Below are positions 30,404 through 57,831 of a stretch of DNA of 64,000 nucleotides, piece after piece; the stretch's first letter is position 1; the number at the start of each line of letters is the position of its first letter. The translations under genes and the position numbers were made by a program. Source of the DNA: Methylobacterium sp. 17Sr1-1 (lineage in GTDB: Bacteria; Pseudomonadota; Alphaproteobacteria; Rhizobiales; Beijerinckiaceae). The stretch spans positions 1,009,001 through 1,073,000 of the forward strand of contig NZ_CP029552.1 of the NCBI RefSeq assembly GCF_003173775.1. The letters run 5' to 3'. The notes beneath the pieces were generated by a model. The model saw only the letters and a program-made list of their open reading frames with translations, did no database searches and was not told the DNA's origin.

Positions 30404-30994
30404 TCAGAGGGTCTCAACGGCCGCACGCATCATATCATCGTTCACATCGATGTAGCGCTGAGTGGTCGAGAGATGCCGGTGGCCAGCGAGCATCATGATG
30501 GCCTTGGGCGATATGCCCGCGTGCGCAAGACGGGTGATGAACCACCGGCGACCACTATGGCTGGAACCGCCGTCCAGACCCGCCTGATCGTACCAGCCCC
30601 GCATGAGCTGACAGAGGGTATTGGCGTTGAACGCCGCGCGCTTCTGCGTGACGAGCACCGGCTGCTCGCGGGGAGGGGAGGAGGGCAGGGACGATCGGTA
30701 CTGCTCGATCTCGCGTCGCAGCCGGGCATTGAGGAACACCACGCGCGCGTGCCCGCCTTTGGTGACAGCCGCGCTGAGGCGCAGCTGTTCCCGCACCTTG
30801 CCCTCTCCCTCGAGGAGGTCGCTCCAACGGAGTGAGGCGATCTCGCCCACCCGGAGCCCTGCCAGATAGCTCAGCATGAGAGCCATCCGGTTACGGGGGC
30901 CGTAGCGCCCTTGGCTCACCACGGCTGTGAGGCGTCGGAACTCGGCCTCCGTCGGCACCCGTGCTTGCTTCAATGAAAGCTCCGTATCAATCAT
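30404..30994 (-). CDS. Short tyrosine recombinase, catalytic domain only
   Basis: This 196-residue protein starts directly in the catalytic domain: PTEAEFRRL, then Arg in LAGLRVGEIASLRW, Lys in VTKGGHAR, Arg/His box HSGRRWFITRLA, and the nucleophile in AGHRHLSTTQRYID. It lacks both the arm-binding and the core-binding domains of normal integrases. Its ATG lies inside a near-perfect inverted repeat that may be its own recombination site. A truncated relative of its N-terminus is at 37480-37600, beyond the restriction-like operon, so the two flank that cargo. Confidence 0.88.
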   Translation of the reverse strand: MIDTELSLKQARVPTEAEFRRLTAVVSQGRYGPRNRMALMLSYLAGLRVGEIASLRWSDLLEGEGKVREQLRLSAAVTKGGHARVVFLNARLRREIEQYRSSLPSSPPREQPVLVTQKRAAFNANTLCQLMRGWYDQAGLDGGSSHSGRRWFITRLAHAGISPKAIMMLAGHRHLSTTQRYIDVNDDMMRAAVETL

Positions 30995-31020
30995 TATTTA
31001 GTAATCATTGATACACCCAA
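30990..31020. promoter_or_regulatory. Inverted repeat with 7-bp spacer at the short recombinase start
   Basis: Arms GTATCAATCATT and AATCATTGATAC (one mismatch) around spacer ATTTAGT have the layout of a tyrosine recombinase core site (two arms of 11-13 bp and a 6-8 bp spacer). They could equally be an autoregulatory operator because the recombinase ATG lies in the left arm. A third half-site, AATCATTGATAC, is near 31117. Confidence 0.5.
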
Positions 31021-31285
31021 TAATGTTTACGGGCGAGTATATATCTGATATTATTGCAAAAATAATAAACTCTCAACTAAATAGACTTCAATGCATATGG
31101 GAAAAACCAGCGTATAATCATTGATACCAGAGTAGCGTCTAAAAAAACAAATTTGATGCGAAAATGAGATTATAATATTTCATTAGAATTATGTCTTATG
31201 CCTTGCAGGCGCAAGATTGCGATATAAATAACATCACAAAAAGCAAATATGGATTGGTTTCGCATCAACAAGCCTCGCCATAATA
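30995..31285. other. AT-rich non-coding stretch between recombinase and HNH gene
   Basis: About 290 bp, much richer in A and T than the flanks. Apart from the inverted repeat at its right-hand recombinase end and one extra half-site near 31117, I see no gene. It may hold the recombinase promoter and the terminator of the restriction-like operon. Confidence 0.4.
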
Positions 31286-32149
31286 TTATGCAGGAGTTGC
31301 TAAAAGTCGATCAATCCATCTGCGGTTGGCTCCTTGGTTCAATTTTAGTATATGAGTTGTGAGCATTGAATATTCCTCATCTTGACCCCGCATCTCACCC
31401 AACTCATCCATGATCTGACCCGCCCTACTTATTGCATCCAGGGCTGCTTGCTCATTTCCAGTACCATGCCGACGAATTGCTAAAGCTAGTTGTAAGGTTA
31501 CTTCAGCTATCTTACGGCGGATTACGAGCGCTTTTTGCTCCCTACGTCTTCGTATATATGCATGGTTTAGATGATATATGCGTATTGAGGCACGAGCACG
31601 CTCGAAGTAAACTGGCTCATCTTCCCTTGAAGCCTGAGGTGTTGCCACCCCTAGATCATTGAATCCAATAAGCCCCACCTCATCGCCGCGATACGGATCG
31701 ATAAGCGCAGGGTACTCATCTCGAAGGATATCGTCGGGTTTGGTAGCGCGTATGCCACCTTTCAATAGTGGAAATTCCGAACTTTTACCACCCCCACCAA
31801 CTATAGCACCGTTACTAACCCGCCGCTCATTGCAAAATCGGCAGGCAAAGCGCAAGTTAGACACTTCGAACGCGAGCCACCAATAGCCTCGGTGTCCGTT
31901 AGCCTCTACGCCACTCTTTGGACGGTAGTGGTCAACTTGATAGTCGTCGCGAACGCGCACTGTCTCGCAATAAAAACATTTATTCTTAGAAATTTTACTC
32001 AGGTTTTCCTTGAGCTCTCCCCAGACATTTGAAAATTCGCCAATTGTCTTTGGTTTATCTAAAGATTTCGCTACAGCCTTTTCAGCCGCCAACTTTTTGG
32101 CGTTCCAACCTGGCGGCAATACAAGATTATCTGAGGGAATTTTTCTCAT
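31286..32149 (-). CDS. HNH endonuclease (PtuB/TIGR02646-like), last gene of the M-S-ATPase-HNH operon
   Basis: The 287-residue protein has a zinc-bound HNH domain at about 55-110: KCFYCE (Cys58, Cys61), YQVDHYRPKS with His74, a Trp-rich segment GYWWLAFEVSNL, and ACRFCNE (Cys103, Cys106, Asn107). This order matches HNH nucleases paired with SMC-like ATPases, such as PtuB of Septu. The remaining ~170 residues are helical and not recognised. Its start overlaps the end of the ATPase gene by 4 bp (ATGA), so the two are translated together. I infer that it is the nuclease effector of the operon. Codon use is more AT-rich than in the signalling genes, a sign of transfer. Confidence 0.82.
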   Translation of the reverse strand: MRKIPSDNLVLPPGWNAKKLAAEKAVAKSLDKPKTIGEFSNVWGELKENLSKISKNKCFYCETVRVRDDYQVDHYRPKSGVEANGHRGYWWLAFEVSNLRFACRFCNERRVSNGAIVGGGGKSSEFPLLKGGIRATKPDDILRDEYPALIDPYRGDEVGLIGFNDLGVATPQASREDEPVYFERARASIRIYHLNHAYIRRRREQKALVIRRKIAEVTLQLALAIRRHGTGNEQAALDAISRAGQIMDELGEMRGQDEEYSMLTTHILKLNQGANRRWIDRLLATPA

Positions 32150-33714
32150 TTTTTATCACCAAATAATTCGTCGAGAATTTTATCCATCAGCTCATCACGC
32201 TCCTTTAATTGCTTACGCGTCAGCGTTGTCTCCGATGCGATGAAAGCCGCTTCGCGCTCCATGATTCTTTTGACAAATTCGGCATACAGCGGATCTGGTA
32301 ATGACGCGCTCACATCAACTTCCGATAAGCGCTGATTTACTCTATCCAACTCTGCAGATTGTGCAGGGGACCGATCATCTCCGAGTGCAACAAGGTGGTG
32401 CTTTTCGTTGACATCTTTCTGCACAGATGGAGCCATAAGCGAATCTAAGCCGAACATCTCGCTCATCAGCACGCCTGGCACGCCAAGTTTGCTCGGGTCC
32501 TCTGACGGCTCTCGCGCTTCAATCTTGCCATCCTCCGATTTGGTAAGCAATCTCACTTGCTTGCGATTTGACATAGCAACGGCCACGGGGTCGTGCGTCA
32601 CAAAAAGCAAGTGACGGCTTTTATCTTGCCCTACAACTTTATCAACTAATTCAAGAAATTTGAGACCCCATACAGGATTCAAATGAGTATCAGGCTCGTC
32701 GAGGAGAAACAAACTTTCTTCGTCCTTGGTAAACCTTAAAAGACCTAAAACCATAAGTAACTGTTGCTCTCCCTCACTTAATTCACGAAACCCTATGCTA
32801 CCATCTGCGCCCGTCTTACGAATTGTTACGACAATATCGTAAATCAGATCCGAAACGAACGCACTTTCTAAAAGCCTAAAAAGGCTACGCGATCGCGGTT
32901 CTTTTTTTGGCTTAAGATTGTCGACAATACGTCGTAAGTCTTCAACTTTCCTTATGAATAGATATATTCTTTGTCGATTTGATTTAGTGTTTATTCCTGT
33001 ACGTTCTTTAGCAAGGACTTGAAGCGGAGCTAGTGATGCATCATAAAGTTGATTTAAGAATTTTCTGACAACACCCTTAGCATTCCAGAACTTAGATTTG
33101 TCTTTGACCGATTGATTTGCGCCCCAAGAGGGTTTTTGCAGCACGAATAACGCGCTTGCCAGCTCTTCAATGCCCAATTCTTCATGAAGCACAGATAGTG
33201 CTTCGGCATCCTGATCAATTAGAAATGCCAACAGAACAAAGCGACTATGTATCGCACGCCCGTAAATGAGACTTTGATGGGCTGATATATCGCCAGCTAT
33301 CATTTTGTCGCGAAATAATACAAGAGACCTATCAAAAAGTTTGCTTAATCTATCGCTAGCGCCTGAGTAATATGCAAACAGAGTTCTAGGAAGCAACCCA
33401 TTTTCTGTCAAGTATAGCGCATTCACGTTATTTCCCTCGACATTAATATTTGTTCGGACTCTTTCTCTATTGGGATCATGATCGATTAAAATTTTTATGT
33501 TTTTGATTTCATAAATTATATTGTATGAGAAATCAGTCTCTGTATGGCGACCTTCAATCAGGTCTCGAAAGATAATGACGAGCGCTTCAATGAGATTCGA
33601 TTTTCCTGCTCCATTATTGCCAATTAGCAAAACATCCGGTATATTCTCATCAAAATTTATTTCAAAATCGAAAAGATTCTTATATCGCGGAAGTGTAAGC
33701 TTGAGAACTTTCAT
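32146..33714 (-). CDS. SMC/ABC-like AAA ATPase (PtuA/RloA-like)
   Basis: The 522-residue protein begins with a RecF/SMC-type nucleotide-binding fold: LPRYKNLFDFEINF, Walker A GNNGAGKS (32-39), the ABC signature FRELSEGEQQLL (about 305-316), Walker B LFLLDEPDTHLNP (about 335-347) and a switch His in LFVTHDPVAVAM. The central 200 residues are a helical insert. There is no TOPRIM domain, so it is not an OLD nuclease. In Septu, such an ATPase complexes with an HNH partner and controls DNA cleavage. Here it overlaps hsdS on one side and the HNH gene on the other by 4 bp each. I infer that it links recognition by the HsdM/HsdS subunits to the nuclease. Confidence 0.85.
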   Translation of the reverse strand: MKVLKLTLPRYKNLFDFEINFDENIPDVLLIGNNGAGKSNLIEALVIIFRDLIEGRHTETDFSYNIIYEIKNIKILIDHDPNRERVRTNINVEGNNVNALYLTENGLLPRTLFAYYSGASDRLSKLFDRSLVLFRDKMIAGDISAHQSLIYGRAIHSRFVLLAFLIDQDAEALSVLHEELGIEELASALFVLQKPSWGANQSVKDKSKFWNAKGVVRKFLNQLYDASLAPLQVLAKERTGINTKSNRQRIYLFIRKVEDLRRIVDNLKPKKEPRSRSLFRLLESAFVSDLIYDIVVTIRKTGADGSIGFRELSEGEQQLLMVLGLLRFTKDEESLFLLDEPDTHLNPVWGLKFLELVDKVVGQDKSRHLLFVTHDPVAVAMSNRKQVRLLTKSEDGKIEAREPSEDPSKLGVPGVLMSEMFGLDSLMAPSVQKDVNEKHHLVALGDDRSPAQSAELDRVNQRLSEVDVSASLPDPLYAEFVKRIMEREAAFIASETTLTRKQLKERDELMDKILDELFGDKK

Positions 33715-35252
33715 GACAACTTACCCGTGACGCGCCCAATTAAATTTTTTTCGCTATCTTCAAATACTGTGCCAGCGTCTATAAGGGCGCTGAGTTCCGA
33801 ATAAAAATTCTCTAGATCTTCTATATCATAGTGTGATGCTGTGAACAGTTGCTCTGGTGATAATGGCTTCTCTGCGGTGATGAGTATACTCGCTAGAGAG
33901 GGTCTTTGCTTTGAGTGCATGGCATTCAACGATCCAGAATTTATTTGACGGACGGTGCGAGACCGCTGCGATTTGACCCGTACCGATATGGGCTGAATTG
34001 GCACATCGGACGGGATGCTTCGGTCGCCACTTAATGCCTCCCCTAACATTTTAGGCCGGATCGCGCCTAAAAGATGACGCGCTTGCTGCACCTCTCTCTG
34101 AAGATTTTCAATTTCTGAAATCGTAAGAGTCAATGCGTTATCGATTTGTGTAACCGTATCTCGGGGTGGTATAGGAACAATAAGGGATTTTACAGCCCGA
34201 GCGCTAATCGAAGCCAGATTGCTTGTTTGCGTTCCTGCAGCCTCAAGATAGCTATGTGCAACGTAGTTGGTATATCGTGCAAGAAATAGAGGAGATATAA
34301 TATCAGAATTTAATCGAACCCTGAATACATGATTTTGATGTATGCAATTTGATATCTGTCCTTCCCAGATCCAACCACGACCTAACTTATCACGATCACC
34401 ACCCTCGTTCATCAAAACGTCGCCAACCTCCAAAAGTAGACGATCTACCTCGGTTTTACGCACCATTATGCTTTTAACATCTTTCAGATCTAATCTGCCG
34501 CGCTGCACGTTCGCAACCCGTAAGTAAGGGAGCTCGACTAAATCATCGTTAGGCGTATATTTTCGCCCAAGAGTTATGCCGCCCTGAACTGACGCTATAT
34601 CTCCGAGTGATTCTTCGGTCCAGCCTTCGCGCGAATTGTAAGCATTCTTAATATGCCTATCGAAATAATTGGAAATCTTTTGGGCCGCAGAGGATGCCTC
34701 AAAGTCGGCTTGACGAATCGCACGGTCGACGTCTTTCATAAAGGTAATAATTTCGTCTTGCTCAGATAATGAAGGCTGTGGTAATGGTATAGATGAAATG
34801 GTACGTGTTGAGAGATGCTTTACTGTGACGGAGGATGTATTGGCGTTAATTGCTTTGAGATAGCCTGGCAATATAAGCTCGAGGAACGATTGGCGGTATA
34901 TTGGAGAATCGACTGTAATCTTGGCAACGCGTTGATTTAAAAGGGCTCGAGGTCCATTCCAGTTCGCCGATCGAAACTCACCATCGAGCCCGACGAGATA
35001 ATCGCCTGTATTAACCCAAAAATCGTCAGTAATAGGTCCTGAGTAAAGCGTTTCAGCCGTGTTTTTGCCAATATCTCGAATTCTTATCAGAGGGGTACCA
35101 CTCAATTCATTGAAATATCGCGAAGAATACGCAAAGCCTGATTTTATCTCCGCAATTTTGCCAAGTTCCACACGAGGCCATCGCTCCGCGCAATTAAGAA
35201 GTGGATCGGTGGATGATTGTATGAATTCGAAATTTGGCGATCTGAGAGTCAT
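33711..35252 (-). CDS. hsdS: Type I restriction specificity subunit HsdS with C-terminal extension
   Basis: The 513-residue protein has two target-recognition domains in tandem: the first from about 25-195 (WPRVELGKIAEIKSGFAYSS) and the second from about 215-390 (ESLGDIASVQGGITLGRKYT, LPYLRVANVQRG), each followed by a helical spacer (QDEIITFMKDVDRAIRQAD and ITQIDNALTL-like). This gives a bipartite DNA target. The last ~90 residues (PSLASILITAEKPLSPEQLF onward) resemble a small winged helix and are extra compared with classic HsdS. It overlaps hsdM and the ATPase gene by 4 bp each. The extension could be the docking site for the ATPase. Confidence 0.88.
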   Translation of the reverse strand: MTLRSPNFEFIQSSTDPLLNCAERWPRVELGKIAEIKSGFAYSSRYFNELSGTPLIRIRDIGKNTAETLYSGPITDDFWVNTGDYLVGLDGEFRSANWNGPRALLNQRVAKITVDSPIYRQSFLELILPGYLKAINANTSSVTVKHLSTRTISSIPLPQPSLSEQDEIITFMKDVDRAIRQADFEASSAAQKISNYFDRHIKNAYNSREGWTEESLGDIASVQGGITLGRKYTPNDDLVELPYLRVANVQRGRLDLKDVKSIMVRKTEVDRLLLEVGDVLMNEGGDRDKLGRGWIWEGQISNCIHQNHVFRVRLNSDIISPLFLARYTNYVAHSYLEAAGTQTSNLASISARAVKSLIVPIPPRDTVTQIDNALTLTISEIENLQREVQQARHLLGAIRPKMLGEALSGDRSIPSDVPIQPISVRVKSQRSRTVRQINSGSLNAMHSKQRPSLASILITAEKPLSPEQLFTASHYDIEDLENFYSELSALIDAGTVFEDSEKNLIGRVTGKLS

Positions 35253-42890: not shown

Positions 42891-43161
42891 ACGGGAGGTC
42901 TTACGCTCCACCTTCATCAATCACACGAGCACCCCGCGCCCAGCAAAGCGGCGGCGGTTTCGTACGTGCGCTGTCGGCGCGGCGCAGTGATGCAGCGACG
43001 CCCGGCAACAAAGCGCGCACTAATTAGTTGGTGGGGACTGTTACCGATGATGGCCAGACACGGATCTCGCTAGATGTATCATCACATAGCCAGCATTGCC
43101 CATCTCGCAAACTGCGCTAGCATGGTTCTGGCTTGGGCGCCGTGCAGCTAGGGGGACTATA
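42891..43161. other. Intergenic region before the SIR2-like gene
   Basis: About 270 bp without a supported gene. Base composition drops from GC-rich to AT-rich around 43080, marking the left edge of the SIR2-like insert. An AGGGGGA at 43149-43155 serves as ribosome site for the next gene. Confidence 0.4.
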
Positions 43162-44232
43162 ATGATAAACAGAAAGATTGTCTTTGTGATTGGAGCGGGC
43201 TCAGGCTTTGACATCAACATGCCACTAGGCACGAAACTAGCCGAAAATATATCAAATTTGACGGCAGTTAAGAACGGCGCCTATGGCATGCCAGAGCCAT
43301 GCGATCAGAAATTTTCTGATATGCTTCGATACTATGCTCATAATAACGATGATATGGAAGACCCGGATGTAATTGAAAAATACTATAAAATTTCTAGTGA
43401 TATTAGTCTCGGGATCAATCTTGCTAAATCAATTGACGACTTTGTAAATACTCATCAGCAAAACAAAAATCTGGTCGCTGTGGCTAAGATAGCAATCGCA
43501 GAATGTATTCTTAAAGCAGAAAGAAATTGCTTGTTGTATAATGAGTTCAACGGAAGACAATTTGTCGATTTTTCTCAAACGAAGCGCACATGGTACAGTA
43601 GTTTGTTCTCTACCCTGACGCACGGCGTGCCATCTTCAAACATGGCAGACGCATTCAAGTACATAACGTTTATAAACTTCAATTATGATAGATGTCTGGA
43701 GTTCTTTCTAACAAATGCACTTCGGCAATATTTTTTATGCGACACTGAATATGCCAATAATGTAGTTAAAAATATAAAGATACTGCATCCATACGGACAA
43801 GTTGGCTTCTTGCCTGGCTCCGCAGGCACTAGGAATATTATAAAATTTGGAGGATGCGACGACTATCCTCACAGCTCAGTCAAAGCAGCAAATGAAATAA
43901 TAACTTACACGGAGAACATACAAGATGGAAATTTGCGGTCGGATATTCTTGAGGCGATATCTGGTGCGCAGAGCATCGTGTTTCTCGGGTTCGGATTTCA
44001 TGATCAAAATATCAAGATATTGACACCGCCACCCTCCCAAATTGTCTTCAACAAGCAGATATTCGCTACTGCGATGGGAATTTCAAAACCAAACGCAAAG
44101 GTTTTGATGCATAATCTAAGAACGATGTGTTTGCCGCCTAACTCTGGAGCGCAATCCGATAATGCAATTTTCCTAGAAAGGGAACTAGATTGTACTGGCC
44201 TGCTTTCCGATTATGATCTTGTACTGAAGTGA
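43162..44232 (+). CDS. SIR2-like domain protein, candidate stand-alone defence gene
   Basis: The ATG at 43162 has a good AGGGGGA ribosome site; the product has 356 residues. It carries SIR2-family marks: FVIGAGSGFDINMPLGTKL at the NAD pocket (Gly11-Gly13), FINFNYDRCLEFF (Asn174, Asp176), the HPYG segment with His209 where SIR2 enzymes have the catalytic His, and VFLGFGFHDQNI near the C-terminus. This pattern is that of the divergent SIR2-like proteins found in antiphage systems, which destroy NAD on infection. It is strongly AT-rich against the flanks and has no partner gene, so it was probably acquired alone. The NADase role is inferred. Confidence 0.75.
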   Translation: MINRKIVFVIGAGSGFDINMPLGTKLAENISNLTAVKNGAYGMPEPCDQKFSDMLRYYAHNNDDMEDPDVIEKYYKISSDISLGINLAKSIDDFVNTHQQNKNLVAVAKIAIAECILKAERNCLLYNEFNGRQFVDFSQTKRTWYSSLFSTLTHGVPSSNMADAFKYITFINFNYDRCLEFFLTNALRQYFLCDTEYANNVVKNIKILHPYGQVGFLPGSAGTRNIIKFGGCDDYPHSSVKAANEIITYTENIQDGNLRSDILEAISGAQSIVFLGFGFHDQNIKILTPPPSQIVFNKQIFATAMGISKPNAKVLMHNLRTMCLPPNSGAQSDNAIFLERELDCTGLLSDYDLVLK

Positions 44233-46476: not shown

Positions 46477-49080
46477 TCAGGGCTTTGGAACAGTTTGCTC
46501 CTTGGGCTGATCCCAACAGCGATCGTAAAATTCTGACCTATCAAACGACTTGTTCTCGGGATCCGCTGGGTCCTTCATCCTCAACCCGAAATGCTTGTAC
46601 ATCTCTGCAATTCTCACATGCGCGGCCCGCATATTTTCGCGGCGATCCTTCTCGAAATAGCTCGGCCCATTGAGTTCGAGCAGCACGATGTTGGCACACA
46701 TCATGACCGTATAGCCCAGCGATATAGCCTCTGTCGCGAGCAGCGTATCCTCTCCATGGATGTCATACGTGGGGTTGGGGAAGACTTCACGACGGCCTTC
46801 TTTTCGGAAATTGCGCAAAACGAATAGGCTACCTTTTAAGTCGGGATTTTTGTGAAAAATGTGATTGGTGTCGTAATCTCGACCGGCTTTATTCCAGAAC
46901 GCGGCGGGGTGCCGTGGGTCTTTTCCGTCCCAGTAGGGAAAGAAAATATCTACTCCAGCGTAGGCCGAGGGGCCATTCGAAGCCATTTCATCAAAAAACG
47001 TTATATCAGTGCTCTTATGATATTTGGTTCCAAGAATGGCATCGTCATCCATCATGATGCCCCAGTCGTACGTACTGCTGTAAAACCATTCCAAGCATTC
47101 AATACGGTTGGTGATGAGCGGTCGTCCCTCAACTTCGCGAATGGCAGCATCACCAAATCGGGCCTTCAATTCGTCGAAGATACCATTGCCTTGGACGTTG
47201 AAGCTGTCAATGTCGTTCTGGCTCCACCCACTAAGCAATATCGCTATGGATACGTCGGTTTCCTCCATCCACCAATTCAGCTGCTCAAGGAAATTCGCGC
47301 TCCTTAGCTGCCACTTAGCTGGATCAGGCGAACGGTACGACGTGATATAGGCACAGAATTGCGCTTCTGCTCCGGCGAAATTTAGCACGCTGCCGGGCGC
47401 CGTCTTGCTGAAGGGCTCGCAAGCGTGTCGGCGGAGCATGGATGCCGACTTGACGGTGGGTACCATGTAGCGGACCCGACTATCAGGGGTGGAAAACTCA
47501 ACCAGCAAAGCGGCTTGGCGGTCGTCCGTATTTACGAACTGCGCTTTCGCTCCCACATTGTGTTCCTTGAGGAGCTTGCACAGGCCTGCCATTTCCAGGA
47601 CTGGCAGCCGAACATCTTGATCGATGGGAACTGGTCCCACGGCATCGAACAGCCGGCACTTCATGTTGTCTGCGCGACTATCGCAAGGCAACACGGATGT
47701 TGCAAAGTGATGCACGTCGATGTAATATTCTGTTACCGTTTTTTCTCTTTCATTATTGTAGCTTGAGCTACTTTCTAGCGGTACCTTATAGGTCAAGCTA
47801 TCGCTTGAAAGATCAAGAGCGCGAGGTATTTCAACCTTTCCAGGCATTTGATATTCGTATGAGCGATGATCGAGATGCTTGTTTGTCGATGGCACGTGCA
47901 TTATCGTCCGCGCGCCATAAGTGATATGACGGTTCTGCCTCCATAGATTTGACAAAACTGCTTGATGTCGATCAATTTGATGTCGTACTTCTTGTCGTAG
48001 CTGACGAGCTTTGAATTTGATGCTGCCGGTTATGATGTTGTGCCATTTCAAAAAAGAGGTCGCTCGTTCTGCCGTCAGTTGTAAATGCGGGCCATAACCG
48101 ACTGGGACAGCCATATGTTGAAAATCTGTGTCCATATCATTGAACACTTCTGCGACAACCCGAACTCCGTTAGAGGCAGAAAATTCCACGTGATCCACGG
48201 CAATTGTGGCATTCCATCCGGATGCAATGGGAAAATTAAATGCCAGGCGGTCAGCCTCACGGAACGAGAGCGTGTACCAGCGATCCCCCAACTCCGCCCA
48301 CTCAAATGGCAAAGTCACTCGTGCCGTTGTAAACGTGTAAGTCGTATCTATATTCTCCAAGCATAAGAACGTCTCGCCCCCAATAGACATGTTCCGAATG
48401 AGAATTTTCCGTTTATCGGCACCGCTGCCTCTTTTCTCTTTTCCGTCAACGAGCCGCTTGATCGTGACCCAGCCCTGAAGGATGTTAGAGATAATGGTTT
48501 GCGGCGGCAGCAAGACGGCGGCAGGCGCATGTGTGGAAGCTGGCAGATTGGCACTAGCAGTTGGCGACGCACCTCCACTTGAGGCTGTGATATTCATTGC
48601 AGGTTGCGGCGCTGTAATGGGAACGTGACCGGAACCGAGTGCAGGCCCCTTAGTGGCGCTCCTTACGCTATCATAAACATCTGATGGGCTGCCGATGCTT
48701 TTGATCCATCCGACTAGATCGACTGGTGCTTTCCCCAGTCGATCTGCTTCAAGAAGCGTGGTGGCATACTGCGTTACAGCTGTAGCGCTTCGCGCGTTCT
48801 TGAAACACAGCTGGACGGGCGCATAAAATCGGTTGTTTAGCTTAATACTATTGCATTTGAGCCCATGACGATCGCAATAGGCTCTAATTAGATCGTCGTT
48901 ATTGATCAGGGGCTGCCAGACCTCATAGATGTCATGCAGCGCCGCATACACGCGCGACCAAAACGCGTCCTCGTGCTTGCGAGCCTTGCCCGCGTGACGT
49001 TGAGCGGCGCTCAGCCGGCTATCAATATCGTCCAGCTCCTTCTTCAGGGAGGGTTGCTGGGTGTTATGGCTTGCGCTCAT
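46477..49080 (-). CDS. Large protein with C-terminal GT-A glycosyltransferase domain, phage-type
   Basis: The 867-residue protein has at least three parts. Residues 1-150 are helical and charged (coiled-coil at 10-40). A Pro/Ala/Ser linker lies at about 155-200. A middle region of beta-rich character (about 205-590) is not recognised. The last ~270 residues form a GT-A domain: QFCAYITSYRSPDPAKWQLR, WGIMMDDDAILGTKYH with the metal-binding DDD, YAGVDIFFPYWDG, and DIHGEDTLLATEAISLGY with the likely catalytic acid. It probably transfers a sugar to a macromolecule, perhaps a modified base. It is divergent from the DpdA-like operon across a 103-bp gap holding a palindrome. The function of the N-terminal two-thirds is unknown. 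Confidence 0.65.
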   Translation of the reverse strand: MSASHNTQQPSLKKELDDIDSRLSAAQRHAGKARKHEDAFWSRVYAALHDIYEVWQPLINNDDLIRAYCDRHGLKCNSIKLNNRFYAPVQLCFKNARSATAVTQYATTLLEADRLGKAPVDLVGWIKSIGSPSDVYDSVRSATKGPALGSGHVPITAPQPAMNITASSGGASPTASANLPASTHAPAAVLLPPQTIISNILQGWVTIKRLVDGKEKRGSGADKRKILIRNMSIGGETFLCLENIDTTYTFTTARVTLPFEWAELGDRWYTLSFREADRLAFNFPIASGWNATIAVDHVEFSASNGVRVVAEVFNDMDTDFQHMAVPVGYGPHLQLTAERATSFLKWHNIITGSIKFKARQLRQEVRHQIDRHQAVLSNLWRQNRHITYGARTIMHVPSTNKHLDHRSYEYQMPGKVEIPRALDLSSDSLTYKVPLESSSSYNNEREKTVTEYYIDVHHFATSVLPCDSRADNMKCRLFDAVGPVPIDQDVRLPVLEMAGLCKLLKEHNVGAKAQFVNTDDRQAALLVEFSTPDSRVRYMVPTVKSASMLRRHACEPFSKTAPGSVLNFAGAEAQFCAYITSYRSPDPAKWQLRSANFLEQLNWWMEETDVSIAILLSGWSQNDIDSFNVQGNGIFDELKARFGDAAIREVEGRPLITNRIECLEWFYSSTYDWGIMMDDDAILGTKYHKSTDITFFDEMASNGPSAYAGVDIFFPYWDGKDPRHPAAFWNKAGRDYDTNHIFHKNPDLKGSLFVLRNFRKEGRREVFPNPTYDIHGEDTLLATEAISLGYTVMMCANIVLLELNGPSYFEKDRRENMRAAHVRIAEMYKHFGLRMKDPADPENKSFDRSEFYDRCWDQPKEQTVPKP

Positions 49081-49095
49081 CCTGGGCCTGCAACT

Positions 49096-49111
49096 TTTTA
49101 GATATCTAAAA
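49096..49111. promoter_or_regulatory. Perfect palindrome TTTTAGATATCTAAAA in the divergent promoter
   Basis: Sixteen bases of perfect twofold symmetry, in an AT-rich patch between the glycosyltransferase gene (start 49080) and the DpdA-like gene (start 49184). The position fits an operator that controls both transcription units. Confidence 0.5.
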
Positions 49112-49183
49112 TTTTTTTGGAGACCCTGGGTATCGCTGCGGCATTAGCGGCATGTTAATAGGCACGCGCCGACACATGTCTAC

Positions 49184-50719
49184 ATGTTGGATACCCTTTT
49201 CCCTCACCAAACCAATGTGGCTCGCTACCTGCCGGCGATTAGCCACGGGTATGCCAAATCCGCGAATGATGTGACGTGGCAGGCGGAGGGCCTGCTAGGT
49301 CCAATGCTTAACTATCTGCGGTCAGGTAGTATGTTTCACTACCCAGCAACTCTCGCGAGTGCCGGGCAAGTGATGCAGGAGAGCGGCAGCCTCAGCACGG
49401 CGCGCACGAACATCACCGAGCGCAATCGCAAAACCTCGTTCGTGGTCGCGGATAGTGGAGGTTTTCAGATCCAGCAGGGCACGCTGGGACCCTGGCGCTA
49501 CACGCACACCGTGTTGCAATCACTCCGCTGGCAGGAGGAGCACGGCGATTTCGTGATGGCCCTCGACTTCCCGACCGGGGGGATCGCCACGGGCAAAATG
49601 GCCGCGCACATTCATCGGCTCATCCATGTGGACGGCGAAAACCTCGAGGCCATGAGCCGAGCCAACGGATTGAGCGTGGCATTCAACGGATGCCTTCGGC
49701 AGACTTACATCAACACGGAGACCATGCTGATCCACCGGCAGCCCGAGCGAGGTTTTCTCGTGGTGCTGCAGGGCACGAGTGAGCCCGAGAGCCGCGAGTG
49801 GTATCGTGTCCACCAGCCGCTCATTGATGCCGCCGAGGGCATCGCGTTCGCTGGTACCAGCAATATCAGCTACCGACTGATGCTGCGCCGCCTCGTCGAT
49901 ATGCGCGACGACGGCACGCTCGCGCGCATCAAGCACATTCATGTTCTTGGAAGGGGTACGCTTGCAAGCGCATGTGTGCTGACGACGATCCAGCGATGCA
50001 TTCGAGCAAGCATCAATCCAGACCTTCAGATCACTTTTGATACGGCTACGCCATTTCAAGAGGCGAACGAGCGCTACAGCCTGCTCGCCTATTATGTGGC
50101 TGATAACAAATCACTTTCGATCGAATATAATCGCCCATCCGACGCTGAACTCAGCGAGTTTCGGCATCATAGCGAGCTGACGTTCGCTATCAACGATTGG
50201 TGTCACGCCCGCGCGCAGGCTGAAGCACACAGGCTAATCAAAGACGCGCAGGGCTCATATCCCGCCATGCATGGCCGGGCTACGCCTAATGCCGGTATCA
50301 GCATCATCGGCCAGCACCTTGCGGTGAATGATATTGCGGTGGTGCGGCATGATCGCCAGGACCCAGATCCCCGCAACTTTATCGTCAAGCCAGATAGTAA
50401 GACTTCACTGCTCATGTGCGCGCACAATGTGGATGCCGCAACGCGGGCGCTTGAACAAGTGACTGCCAACTGGCTCAGCGACGATGGCGAGACACGGAAT
50501 AATTTCCCCGTCGATCTCCTGGTGATCCGCAGCCTTATCGAAATAATTTTTGCACCCAACCGCGTGCTCGGCCTTATGGATGAGCTGAACGAACAGCCGC
50601 CGCTGGAGGTGGACTATCCAACGGCGGAGTTCCCGTCGCCGATAGCAAGTGTCTCGCCCTACAAGGCGCATGATTTCATCGAACAAAATCGACAGCGTTT
50701 GGACGCGCTCGTTTTGTAG
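49184..50719 (+). CDS. DpdA-like guanine transglycosylase (TGT fold), candidate DNA base-exchange enzyme
   Basis: The 511-residue protein shows the TGT active-site order: FVVADSGGFQIQQG with base-binding Asp90, MALDFPTGGIA, GFLVVLQGTS, IAFAGTSNIS, IHVLGRGTLAS and ITFDTATPFQEA with nucleophile-type Asp286. In tRNA-guanine transglycosylases this last segment is FDCVLPTR. The CxCxxC zinc motif of true TGTs is not visible, and the protein is longer than bacterial TGT (about 375). DpdA enzymes swap guanine in DNA for a 7-deazaguanine; this gene is followed by a precursor transporter, a QueD-like protein and a glycosyltransferase, which supports that role over tRNA modification. The natural substrate is inferred. 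Confidence 0.72.
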   Translation: MLDTLFPHQTNVARYLPAISHGYAKSANDVTWQAEGLLGPMLNYLRSGSMFHYPATLASAGQVMQESGSLSTARTNITERNRKTSFVVADSGGFQIQQGTLGPWRYTHTVLQSLRWQEEHGDFVMALDFPTGGIATGKMAAHIHRLIHVDGENLEAMSRANGLSVAFNGCLRQTYINTETMLIHRQPERGFLVVLQGTSEPESREWYRVHQPLIDAAEGIAFAGTSNISYRLMLRRLVDMRDDGTLARIKHIHVLGRGTLASACVLTTIQRCIRASINPDLQITFDTATPFQEANERYSLLAYYVADNKSLSIEYNRPSDAELSEFRHHSELTFAINDWCHARAQAEAHRLIKDAQGSYPAMHGRATPNAGISIIGQHLAVNDIAVVRHDRQDPDPRNFIVKPDSKTSLLMCAHNVDAATRALEQVTANWLSDDGETRNNFPVDLLVIRSLIEIIFAPNRVLGLMDELNEQPPLEVDYPTAEFPSPIASVSPYKAHDFIEQNRQRLDALVL

Positions 50720-50751
50720 AGCACTCAAATCCGAACGACACGGCCCCAGCA

Positions 50752-51435
50752 GTGCCAGATCCGCTGCGAATGCAAGCCTGCCTTAAGCCGCCCGTGATCG
50801 GTCGCAAGCCTAATAGCCGCGGAATTATCGAGATGATTAGACGAAGAGAGCTTACTGGATTTTTTCGAGGCGATTACAAGCCTCGATGGAATGATAATAT
50901 CGATCTTACGATCATGCTCATTGTGATGTATGTTGCATCTGGTGTGGCGGTCAATGCATTCGCGAAATATCTGCCCGTATACCCCGTAAAAGTTCCATTC
51001 AGCGGCAACCCGCCGGTGTCGTTTCCGCTCATTCCCGGCACGCTGCTGGTGGGCCTGATATTTGTAATGCGCGACTACACGCAAAGGCTCATCGGCGATT
51101 GGGTCGCAGCGTTCATGCTCATAGCGACCATCATCGTATATTTCTGCGTAGATCGAGACCTGGCCTACTATAGTGCACTGGCGTTTCTCGTAAGTGAGGG
51201 GATCGACCAGATAGCCTTCCATTTCCTCAAAAAAGAGGATCTCAAAGATCGCATCCTTTGGTCGTCCGCCGTCGCAACGTTGTTCGACGGGGCCCTCATA
51301 CTGTATGGGCTTAATGAGCTCACCTGGCCCAATTATATCTCACACTACGCAGGAAAAATGCTGGCCACATTCGTGATCTGGCTGGTTCTCTGGCATCTGC
51401 ACAACAAGCGTAGCTCTCTAGCCCCGGCTGAATGA
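50752..51435 (+). CDS. VUT/YhhQ-type queuosine-precursor transporter
   Basis: From the GTG at 50752 the protein has 227 residues; an internal ATG at 50833 would remove 27 non-conserved residues. Six membrane helices are predicted. Segments such as FPLIPGTLLVGLIFVMRDYT and YYSALAFLVSEGIDQIAFHF match the VUT family (YhhQ/QPTR), which imports preQ0, preQ1 or related precursors. It lies 32 bp behind the DpdA-like gene, and its end overlaps the next gene by 4 bp. This placement suggests that it supplies the 7-deazaguanine base for the transglycosylase. Confidence 0.75.
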   Translation: MPDPLRMQACLKPPVIGRKPNSRGIIEMIRRRELTGFFRGDYKPRWNDNIDLTIMLIVMYVASGVAVNAFAKYLPVYPVKVPFSGNPPVSFPLIPGTLLVGLIFVMRDYTQRLIGDWVAAFMLIATIIVYFCVDRDLAYYSALAFLVSEGIDQIAFHFLKKEDLKDRILWSSAVATLFDGALILYGLNELTWPNYISHYAGKMLATFVIWLVLWHLHNKRSSLAPAE

Positions 51436-51827
51436 ACATGACCGCTGCTGCAACAATCGCATCCGCTACCCCGCTTCGAATGATCTGGGTGACGTTCCAG
51501 CGCGCCGGCTTCCATCGTTGGCCCGAGGCATCTGGGGACCGCGCGTACCTTTCCGCCACCCACCGCCACCTGTTCAAATTCCGTGTGTGGATACAGGTAT
51601 GGCACGGTGATCGTGAAGTAGAATTCCATACGTTTCTCGAATGGCTGGAGGGGCTATATCAAAGCAGTATACTCCAGCTGGATGGAAAGAGCTGCGAGAC
51701 AATTAGTGACGAGCTGTACGAAAACATTGCCGCTAACTACCCCGGCCGCGATGTTTGGATCGAGGTAAGCGAGGACGGAGAGTGCGGTAGCTACTCGCAG
51801 TACTCGGCCAGCGAGCAACGCAAGTGA
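51432..51827 (+). CDS. QueD-like protein (6-carboxytetrahydropterin synthase family)
   Basis: The 131-residue protein carries the phage-type QueD pattern: FHRWPEA, ATHRHLFKFRVWIQV with the zinc-binding His pair, DREVEFHTFLEWLE, SCETISDELYENI with the Cys, and VWIEVSEDGECGSY with the substrate Glu. QueD makes the 6-carboxy-pterin intermediate of preQ0 synthesis. No QueE, QueC or FolE gene is in the window, so host enzymes would have to complete the path, or this protein has another related task. It overlaps the transporter and the following glycosyltransferase by 4 bp each. Confidence 0.7.
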   Translation: MNMTAAATIASATPLRMIWVTFQRAGFHRWPEASGDRAYLSATHRHLFKFRVWIQVWHGDREVEFHTFLEWLEGLYQSSILQLDGKSCETISDELYENIAANYPGRDVWIEVSEDGECGSYSQYSASEQRK

Positions 51828-52891
51828 CCATTTGGATTTTGCCCATCGAGGGCCATGAGCAGCGTTACACGGGGCAGTGGCTGCACCATCTCCCCGTGCA
51901 GCTGGCGCAGGCAGCCGCGGCACGCGGCGTGCCGGCGAGCGTGATCCAGATCGAGGGTGAAATGCCCCCGCCGGTGCCCCTGGCGGGCGCCTTCCTCGAT
52001 TTCGCCGGCACCAACATCTTCAAGAGCACGCAGATCGCCGAGGTCGCTCGGCGGTTCCAGCGGGGGGAGGTGCAGCCGGGCGACACGTTCCTGATCACCG
52101 ACGCATGGCATCCCGGCGTGCATCAGATCCGGTACATGAGCGCGCTGCTCCAGAAACCAGTGCGCCTGATCGGACTGTTCCACGCCGGTCATTATGACCC
52201 CAACGACTTCCTCGGCCGGATCGCACCCCGGGACGTCGCATGGGCGAAGGCAATGGAACGCGCGCTGTTCGAGGCCTACGATGTCAGCATGTTCGCGACG
52301 CAAGCCCATGCCGAGCTGTTCCGCGCAGGGGTGAGCGTGGCGGCGGATGATCCGCGAGTGGCCGTGTGTGGGTGGCCCATGGAGTACCTGGCGGCGGAGC
52401 TACAGCCGCACCTCGGGCAGCCCAAGGAGAACATCGTGCTGTTCCCCCACCGGCTGGCACCCGAGAAACAGCTGGAGATCTTCAAGGATCTGGCGGGGTC
52501 GTTCCCCGGCTGGCGGTTCCTGACGTGCCAGGAGATGGCTCTCACCAAAGGGGATTACCACGACCTGCTCGCTCGGAGCCGGGTGGTGTTCTCGTGCAGC
52601 CTGCAGGAGACCCTGGGCATCGGCTGCTATGAGGGGATGCTGGCGGGGGCAGTGCCGATGGTGCCGGATCGTCTCAGCTACCGCGAGATGTACCCCGAGG
52701 AGTTCCGGTACCCCGCGGAGTGGACAGCCAGCTGGGCGGCGTACCAGCGGCACAAGCCGGCATTGGTGGCGCATCTCTCGGCCGTGCTGGATCGCGTGGT
52801 CAGCGGTGGGTACAGCCTGACAGCATGCGAGCAGCAACTCTCGCGTTTCTTCTCCGGAGAAGCCCTCTACGATCGCGTGCTCGCCGCGTGA
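51824..52891 (+). CDS. GT-B-fold glycosyltransferase in the DpdA-like operon
   Basis: The GTG at 51824 overlaps the previous stop. The 355-residue protein has a two-lobed GT-B layout: WILPIEGHEQRYTGQWLHHL at the start, FLITDAWHPGVHQIRY, then in the C-terminal lobe VLFPHRLAPEKQLEIFKDLA and SCSLQETLGIGCYEGMLAGA, which is the nucleotide-sugar site with the paired Glu. It is related to GT4-type and phage DNA glycosyltransferases. Translational overlap with the QueD-like gene suggests that it decorates the product of this operon. Sugar and acceptor are unknown. A strong hairpin follows. Confidence 0.75.
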   Translation: MTIWILPIEGHEQRYTGQWLHHLPVQLAQAAAARGVPASVIQIEGEMPPPVPLAGAFLDFAGTNIFKSTQIAEVARRFQRGEVQPGDTFLITDAWHPGVHQIRYMSALLQKPVRLIGLFHAGHYDPNDFLGRIAPRDVAWAKAMERALFEAYDVSMFATQAHAELFRAGVSVAADDPRVAVCGWPMEYLAAELQPHLGQPKENIVLFPHRLAPEKQLEIFKDLAGSFPGWRFLTCQEMALTKGDYHDLLARSRVVFSCSLQETLGIGCYEGMLAGAVPMVPDRLSYREMYPEEFRYPAEWTASWAAYQRHKPALVAHLSAVLDRVVSGGYSLTACEQQLSRFFSGEALYDRVLAA

Positions 52892-57249: not shown

Positions 57250-57831
57250 TTACAAATTTGAAACCACAACATTTTGCGGAAGAGGGTGACTACCAAGCAT
57301 TGCAGCCATTGCTGTTGCTTTGTCTTCCCTCACCTTCGCCCAGCGCCTACTAGCCGCCTCACTCATATTCTTTCTTGTTTCAGCGCTTTTTGGAGCGCCC
57401 GAGAGGGAAGCGCTGATGGCCTGCTTGGTGGCGTCTGACTGCTTGGTACCGGTTCGCGCATCCCTAATTTTGTCCTTGCTTTCTTGGCTGTGAGTGTCGC
57501 CGCTTTGCATGTGGCACACGCGCTTGCTCATCTCCTTTGTTTTGATTTCCATCGTATGGACGCTGCAGATGCCGTCCATGAAAGCATTTTTGTTTTTCCA
57601 GCTTAGGACGTAGCCATCATCGCTAAGCATGAAACCCATGGGATCTCCAAACAGCATTTTCTGCTTGAGCACGTTGTAAAAATACCGTTGACGCTTCCAC
57701 AAGACGAGGTACTCATCCCATGAAATATCAAAAACTCGACCCTCGCTTTCCTGATATGCCTTGCTGCTTTCATAGCGACCTCGAAGAAATTTCTCCAACT
57801 CCTGATCGCGTTCCGATTTGAATTGTGTCAT
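57250..57831 (-). CDS. NUMOD3-containing protein (homing-endonuclease-associated modules)
   Basis: The 193-residue protein has a conserved-looking N-terminal half (FDISWDEYLVLWKRQRYFYN, AFMDGICSVHTMEIKTKEMS) and then two NUMOD3 DNA-binding modules, SQESKDKIRDARTG and KSAETRKNMSEAASRRWAK, with another between them. NUMOD3 modules normally tether GIY-YIG or HNH homing nucleases to DNA. No GIY-YIG or HNH motif is evident in the N-terminal half, so the nuclease may be divergent or lost. This type of gene is common in phages and supports a phage origin of the region. Confidence 0.7.
   Translation of the reverse strand: MTQFKSERDQELEKFLRGRYESSKAYQESEGRVFDISWDEYLVLWKRQRYFYNVLKQKMLFGDPMGFMLSDDGYVLSWKNKNAFMDGICSVHTMEIKTKEMSKRVCHMQSGDTHSQESKDKIRDARTGTKQSDATKQAISASLSGAPKSAETRKNMSEAASRRWAKVREDKATAMAAMLGSHPLPQNVVVSNL

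Follow-up and report, generated by a model that had tools for sequence, protein, structure and literature searches.

A probably mobile gene set of Methylobacterium as a candidate module for glycosylated 7-deazaguanine in DNA

The DNA analysed here, called the window, is a stretch of 64,000 nucleotides from the chromosome of Methylobacterium sp. 17Sr1-1, a single contig of 6.54 Mb. It harbors a locus of five genes, P0001 to P0005, whose products are a large protein ending in a glycosyltransferase domain of the GT-A type, a base-exchange enzyme resembling DpdA, a transporter, a QueD-like protein and a GT-B glycosyltransferase (Table 1). An earlier sequence-only reading had proposed that precursor import, base exchange and sugar addition are joined here, and comparative evidence supports this candidate pathway. 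In our view, the locus is probably a mobile module which inserts 7-deazaguanine in DNA and glycosylates it, with a clamp-like ring tethering one of the glycosyltransferases. The five open reading frames and their divergent arrangement are as first described: the start codons of P0001 and P0002 diverge with 103 bp between them. The 4-bp overlaps reported throughout the operon occur at the P0003/P0004 and P0004/P0005 junctions but not at P0002/P0003, where 32 bp lie between the P0002 stop and the first P0003 start codon.

Table 1. Genes and domains of the locus, in window coordinates
Feature	Position	Strand	Description
P0001	46477-49080	-	867 aa, DpdA-partner protein with a fused GT-A domain
P0002	49184-50719	+	511 aa, TGT-superfamily (DpdA-like) base-exchange enzyme
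P0003	50752-51435	+	VUT/YhhQ-type transporter, presumably for a 7-deazaguanine precursor
P0004	51432-51827	+	131 aa, QueD-like zinc protein lacking the catalytic cysteine of QueD
P0005	51824-52891	+	355 aa, GT-B glycosyltransferase, catalytic half QTMAN-like
GT-A domain of P0001, residues 571-867	46480-47370	-	TAGT-like; predicted fold, Foldseek and Pfam TAGT matches of relatives
Clamp-like-equivalent region of P0001, residues 190-565	47386-48513	-	modelled succession of helices and strands
N-terminal helical domain of P0001, residues 9-142	48655-49056	-	common to the partner family; BLASTP and model

Since direct scans of Pfam, NCBIfam and PADLOC with P0002 and P0004 came back empty, both proteins were examined by profile comparison. 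The family profile of P0002 aligns with that of 26 tRNA TGTs over 255 columns (hhalign probability 94.2, E 1.2e-7). Both catalytic-aspartate motifs, DSGGFQ and FDxxxP, lie inside this alignment, which places P0002 in the TGT superfamily. D90 (within DSGGFQ), D128, H253 and D286 are invariant in 36 aligned rows of the family. With the TGT-like proteins that phages ACP17 and X1 encode, the probability rises to 96.2. The CxCxxC zinc motif is a trait of tRNA TGTs, and none was found on reading the P0002 sequence. In a tree of 45 rows (44 distinct, as the host TGT was entered twice), for which the tool gave long-branch warnings, the tRNA TGTs form their own clade (support 100/99) and P0002 falls outside it, joining phage enzymes. 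P0002 is one of 12 bacterial DpdA-like rows (of 15) that are sister to the enzyme of the jumbo phage Phosso (96/93). The profile match, the aspartate motifs and the tree thus bear out the initial view of P0002 as a TGT-fold enzyme with DpdA-like traits, and it does not cluster with the tRNA enzymes, subject to the long-branch warnings.

Homologues of P0002 occur in 13 phage records, namely Phosso, eleven Pseudomonas phages of the PA5oct/Paride type and one Vibrio phage. In the latter, genes annotated as 7-cyano-7-deazaguanine reductase, vitamin uptake transporter, queuosine biosynthesis protein and GTP cyclohydrolase I stand a few genes away. Viral contigs scanned with the single P0002 sequence yielded no match, and nothing convincing came from PDB sequence searches with the profiles of P0002, GT-A and P0004. 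Elsewhere, the host genome encodes a canonical TGT, PTPS/QueD (two matches) and QueC; it has no Vut_1 match beyond P0003.

In 30 aligned rows of the GT-B family of P0005, E262-x7-E270 (EX7E), R210 and K215 are invariant, as expected for a retaining enzyme of the GT4 type, and the assignment of P0005 as a GT-B glycosyltransferase stands. The GT-B profile matched all eight single sequences of QTMAN, the tRNA-queuosine mannosyltransferase, with hhalign probabilities of 94.0-97.1 and scores of 59-81. As a control, the best-scoring open frame of at least 300 amino acids was taken from each of 20 of the host's 31 Glycos_transf_1 loci; here probabilities ranged from 0.2 to 68.2 and no score exceeded 44. 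A joint alignment of 20 generic GT4 segments proved too poor (E 0.88) to serve as a control. The match to QTMAN covers the catalytic GT4 half only, including the RLxYxE region which follows EX7E. Unlike QTMAN, P0005 has no match to Pfam QTMAN_N (PF12038), a domain with no match in the host genome either, and proteins of its type stand beside DpdA and phage DNA genes. A PDB sequence search with the GT-B profile returned generic glycosyltransferases only. QTMAN glycosylates queuosine, a 7-deazaguanine, in tRNA. This likeness is independent of the gene neighborhood and points to a 7-deazaguanine as the acceptor of P0005.

Phage genomes carry much of the same gene set, for instance in Phosso, Paride, ACP17 and X1. 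Relatives of P0004 were found in 27 phage records (25 listed) and relatives of P0005 in 19; fifteen records have both (Phosso, eleven PA5oct-type phages, ACP17 in two records, and X1). The QueD-like and GT-B genes of Phosso are consecutive and overlap by 4 bp, like their counterparts in the window. The Phosso genome holds GT-A, GT-B, QueD-like and DpdA-like genes, the DpdA-like gene lying away from the GT-B. In Paride, Phosso, ACP17 and X1, the GT-B adjoins DpdA/TGT-like, QueD-like, FolE or QueE genes. A scan of viral contigs with five GT-Bs yielded 600 stretches for examination, at least 571 of which encode relatives, and the best 80 of the 571 by GT-B similarity were analysed. All 80 contain at least one other pathway gene: QueD-like in 71, DpdA-like in 68, QueE in 49, FolE in 47 and a second QueD in 8. 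Viral contigs are often cut, so absent genes partly reflect truncation; the query alignment itself came from such clusters, and the 80 loci are no measure of GT-Bs without DpdA. A family read as DNA polymerase is present in 56 of the 80. That the gene set recurs in phages and in other bacteria speaks against a chance association.

This recurrence also bears on the idea that the two glycosyltransferases are cell-surface enzymes which stand beside a DpdA-like gene by coincidence. GT-A and GT-B folds are common, and the host genome has 31 Glycos_transf_1 matches. Against this, the linkage recurs across unrelated phages and bacteria and none of the 20 host GT4 loci tested scores as the QTMAN sequences do. 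We regard a surface role as very improbable. P0005 looks pathway-specific on these comparisons, and the membership of its relatives in viral 7-deazaguanine clusters, its likeness to QTMAN and that of the GT-A domain to TAGT and T4-type enzymes speak against unrelated surface enzymes.

Some genes of the viral clusters may bear on the sugar. In 20 of the 80 loci there is a family of which the member tested is a UDP-glucose/GDP-mannose dehydrogenase, and the Paride cluster has an epimerase-family gene; together they hint at a supply of sugar nucleotides. The sugar-type genes in viral clusters also hint at a special sugar. Examples are a UDP-glucose/GDP-mannose dehydrogenase (L052 2179-2985) and a Gfo/Idh/MocA oxidoreductase (L083 7716-8600). 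An alcohol dehydrogenase-like gene (L040 6978-7886) and an epimerase-family gene (L003 11425-11943) are further members of these clusters. Separately, a protein of about 175 amino acids with no Pfam match is conserved in 55 of the 80 (L060 8834-9361 among them) and was noted in ACP17 as well (L009 6369-6767). It directly precedes the QueD-like gene in L060, L118 and L121 and is a putative further member of the viral pathway.

P0003 and P0004 lie between the base-exchange enzyme and the GT-B. P0003 matches Pfam Vut_1 below the cut-off (E 6e-4, 20.6 bits against 27.2) and phrog_4899 at E 5e-18. Its phage relatives (30 listed of 72 records) are annotated as DUF165 (E down to 4e-17) or as preQ0 transporter (E 6e-7 to 2e-6). 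These phage relatives bear out a VUT/YhhQ-type transporter, even with Pfam below its cut-off, and its cargo is presumably a 7-deazaguanine precursor. P0004 matches phrog_17812 (E 2.7e-28). Its profile aligns with that of 21 PTPS/QueD proteins (probability 91.4, E 9.3e-7) and more weakly with a second, mixed PTPS set that includes RH18_PTPS (52.7, E 1.4e-4). H28, H44, H46, the SCE at 87-89 and E114 are invariant in seven of seven family rows; the three histidines align with the PTPS zinc histidines, and two glutamates likewise stand at aligned positions. Among the hallmarks of QueD/PTPS are a catalytic cysteine and an LDHHxLN segment. In the PTPS profile alignment both are missing from P0004, which has KSCE in place of PTxE. 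The description of P0004 as QueD-like therefore holds for the profile match and the zinc histidines but not for the catalytic cysteine. This loss makes a synthase role improbable, and P0004 is probably not a synthase. Phages ACP17 and RHph_I1_18 encode an annotated QueD or PTPS protein besides their P0004 homologue. Together with the residue losses, this means that P0004 is better read as a QueD paralogue which may bind the base or an intermediate. RHph_I1_18 and Ahp1 have no P0005 match, so the QueD-like protein is not tied to the sugar step. In these two phages, the P0004 homologues lie beside or near FolE (L011 7971-8348 and L012 7974-8366, respectively).

The divergent P0001 has two parts. 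That its end is a GT-A domain, as the sequence-only reading had it, is borne out by the structural model and Foldseek matches. By ten-residue blocks, the pLDDT of this domain is mostly 80-96, with dips to 58, and a DDD motif is nearly invariant in 72 aligned rows. TAGT (TET-associated glycosyltransferases) is the most frequent Pfam match among these relatives, found for 13 of the 72 at E ≤1 (best 3e-4), the next family having two. In PF20691 one of these relatives, P0106, stays below the cut-off with 14.9 bits against 27.5, and P0001 has no match. Unnamed proteins lead the viral fold matches, which include three TAGT proteins and a beta-glucosyl-HMC-alpha-glucosyltransferase (HMC, hydroxymethylcytosine). 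Fold matches in the PDB are generic GT-A enzymes and AvpGT, one entry having Ara-A bound. The domain thus resembles TAGT and the T4-type glucosyl-HMC transferases in its GT-A fold and a weak profile match; it differs from TAGT in that no TET gene was seen in the present set and in its fusion to a clamp-like partner. Only one phage record, Phosso, matches P0001, and there the GT-A is a separate gene. Other relatives are fusions (867 amino acids; one shorter, 509) or free-standing N-terminal proteins of 562-563 amino acids, while free-standing GT-A proteins occur on contigs of 435-480 kb, in Rhizobium and in others. P0001 consists of two parts which join and separate in evolution.

The N-terminal part belongs to a family of DpdA partners with a predicted clamp fold, which the sequence-only reading had missed. 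This family emerged from a survey of 41 loci (40 bacterial, archaeal-metagenome or other loci found through DpdA, and one plasmid) searched by tblastn, 13 of which were mapped, chosen for close DpdA similarity or glycosyltransferases. DpdA stands beside a partner protein in 12 of the 13. A divergent gene for 500-895 amino acids faces DpdA in 11, a gene for 610 amino acids follows it in L117, and no partner gene was seen beside DpdA on the open reading frame map of L116. In four of the mapped loci (L104, L105, L106 and L109) the partner is fused to a GT-A. The partner proteins are mostly related to each other by BLASTP, L117 weakly, and the N-terminus of P0001 joins them with E values down to 1.5e-8, the latter between its residues 7-144 and the homologue L110 of Rhizobium wenxiniae. 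In the model, this helical domain has pLDDT blocks of 65-89.

A clamp was first suspected from reading the C-terminal strands. For L110, a structure was predicted (11 rows, mean pLDDT 73.3) and compared with the PDB; 49 of the 50 matches listed (343 at E ≤10) are sliding clamps by title, namely PCNA, beta clamp and their complexes. The clamp matches have E values of 7.6e-5 to 3.6e-3; 16 of the 343 reach E 0.001, and TM-scores by query are modest, 0.25-0.31. The remaining listed match, 8xla_E, is titled Mismatch Repair Complex. Residues 190-565 of P0001 show a helix and strand order in their model similar to that of the L110 clamp region. The partner family is predicted to have a sliding-clamp fold, the modelled member being the homologue L110 and not P0001 itself. 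PCNA and DnaN share this predicted fold with L110; the partner family differs from them by an additional helical N-terminal domain, the lack of sequence-profile similarity and the glycosyltransferase fusions of P0001 and the four mapped loci. A parallel is known from phage T4, whose alpha-glucosyltransferase binds the gp45 clamp.

The predicted clamp fold, the likeness to TAGT and the phage setting are what lead us to infer DNA as the substrate. The main rival substrate is tRNA: P0002 would insert a 7-deazaguanine in tRNA, and P0005 would glycosylate it as QTMAN does queuosine. The TGT superfamily acts mostly on tRNA, and P0005 resembles QTMAN more than it does the host GT4 loci tested. However, a canonical TGT is already present in the host, P0002 falls among phage enzymes apart from the tRNA TGTs, and the polymerase family of the viral loci speaks for a DNA setting. 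The predicted clamp fold of the partner family and the likeness of the GT-A domain to DNA-base glycosyltransferases also fit tRNA poorly. Modification of tRNA is therefore unlikely in our judgment.

The proposed DNA pathway is best compared with that of phages such as 9g and CAjan, where DpdA, an enzyme of the TGT superfamily, puts 7-deazaguanine in DNA and is accompanied by genes for preQ0 synthesis, in some cases also by YhhQ (Hutinet et al. 2019, PMC6884629). A base-exchange enzyme, precursor genes and a YhhQ-type transporter are common to both, whereas the term ‘glycosyl’ is missing from the main text of that article. Unlike those phages, the viral GT-B clusters showed no QueC on reading of their 40 commonest families. 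With FolE and QueE present and QueC unseen, the viral base may derive from 7-carboxy-7-deazaguanine; for the Methylobacterium base, preQ0 and preQ1 are equally possible. The open-licence literature (bioRxiv outside this scope) yielded no description of a pathway for glycosylated 7-deazaguanine in DNA, in agreement with the earlier remark that no described pathway has this exact set. Within the literature searched, the combination is an undescribed form of DNA 7-deazaguanine modification.

We propose the following course for the DNA pathway. P0002 would take guanine out of DNA and put 7-deazaguanine in by TGT-type base exchange, the base coming from the host queuosine pathway or from import by P0003. 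P0004 may bind the base or an intermediate and ready it for insertion or glycosylation. P0005 would then place a sugar on the inserted base. In P0001, the sliding-clamp-like ring would keep the second, TAGT-type glycosyltransferase on DNA, possibly behind replication, and the GT-A domain could add a further or alternative sugar. The outcome would be DNA of the mobile element or the cell shielded from nucleases.

The order of steps could also be reversed, with P0005 glycosylating a free base or nucleotide and P0002 inserting the glycosylated precursor into DNA. P0003, P0004 and P0005 form an overlapping run, as for precursor enzymes, and the GT-B homologues adjoin QueD-like and FolE/QueE genes. 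Yet TGT-type pockets take small bases, and a second glycosyltransferase on a clamp-like ring fits action on DNA better. We consider addition of the sugar before insertion as improbable as a tRNA substrate.

Beyond this locus, the chances are about even that many viruses and mobile elements have DNA of an undescribed class, in which guanine is replaced by 7-deazaguanine glycosylated by a QTMAN-like GT-B; in alphaproteobacteria, a TAGT-type GT-A joined to its own clamp-like ring would glycosylate further and decorate DNA processively. Described DNA 7-deazaguanines bear small groups, and known sugars on DNA bases sit on hydroxymethyl pyrimidines. If true, two themes of DNA modification, 7-deazaguanine and base sugars, would be joined. 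Such a class would explain many unannotated genes of large viruses and bear on the evasion of restriction by jumbo phages, and the fusion of a sliding-clamp-like protein with a DNA glycosyltransferase would couple base modification to DNA in a new way.

Several observations weigh against the reading of the locus as a DNA glycosylation module. P0002 has no Pfam TGT hit, and its profile gave a probability of only 0.1 with the single DpdA sequence of phage 9g, from which it differs in this respect (the tRNA TGTs reached only 2.3 with 9g as well). P0001 has no Pfam match at E 0.1. Sequence profiles gave probabilities of at most 1.2 against phage clamps, and the clamp-equivalent region of P0001 is modelled with low pLDDT after about residue 315, much of it below 50. 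In the viral scan for GT-A, none of the 35 pattern-matched stretches was confirmed, and VUT and GT-A genes are found in none of the 80 viral GT-B loci. QTMAN acts on tRNA, which would also fit a tRNA substrate here.

The bacterial survey adds to these points. In the 41 loci, tblastn found GT-B in 8, VUT in 5, QueD-like in 4 and GT-A in 7, five of the latter being real GT-A domains. In L108 and L110, the GT-A match lies on the clamp-like tail of the query P0177 according to the open reading frame maps and was rejected. Five GT-B loci are of bacterial type (L103, L104, L107, L116 and L117), and in all of them a VUT gene adjoins the GT-B; the other three (L118, L121 and L125), on contigs of metagenome-assembled genomes, look viral. 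Outside these three, the QueD-like gene occurs only in the near-identical M. frigidaeris locus (L103). With GT-B in 8 of 41 and QueD-like genes scarce, the full set is not constant in bacteria.

The setting of the locus speaks for mobility. Its GC content is 0.547-0.554 in the three 2-kb blocks of 46-52 kb, and 22 of the 32 window blocks have at least 0.60. Its proteins share 86-98% identity with their counterparts in Methylobacterium sp. EM32, M. frigidaeris and close relatives. Of 61 genomes compared (its own, 36 of the same genus and 24 of the same order), two carry a relative of P0002, its own and G021, where the relative is of a second, 30%-identical type only; the locus is sporadic in this set. 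By reading, a short protein with tyrosine-recombinase-like motifs lies near 6 of the 13 mapped DpdA loci (L104-L107, L110 and L114). An Azospirillum DpdA-like gene (L004 7824-9269) is on plasmid pAB510d, with an annotated site-specific integrase nearby. We read the module as cargo of mobile elements, horizontally acquired.

A sporadic locus in a window with type I restriction and SIR2-like genes could also serve defence or conflict, with a clamp-borne enzyme that would mark or damage the DNA of invaders instead of protecting its own. No nuclease was seen in the gene set, P0001 to P0006 match no PADLOC model, and much of the set is carried by viruses, which fits self-protection. A defence function seems less probable still than the tRNA and precursor alternatives, and protection of its own DNA is the role we favor for the module.

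Additional DpdA-like genes were noted. The host genome has a second one, to which both additional P0002 matches in this genome belong, with a neighbor of 588 amino acids, about 83 kb from the window locus (L100 9773-11044 and 11101-12867, both on the minus strand; G000 contig C1, about 973.8-976.9 kb). In G021 (L101), DpdA stands beside a protein of 634 amino acids with a GT-A gene next to it.

Elsewhere in the window, a tyrosine integrase, an AAA protein and a type I restriction specificity subunit at 30407-35252 (GC 0.42-0.53) probably form a separate restriction island. A SIR2-like protein at 43096-44229, with Pfam SIR2_2 above cut-off and weak PADLOC matches (LmuA, SIR2), is a possible defence gene. 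Proteins with NUMOD3 motifs are encoded at 57253-57831 in the window (above cut-off) and near the G021 DpdA locus (L101 6246-6845, below cut-off).

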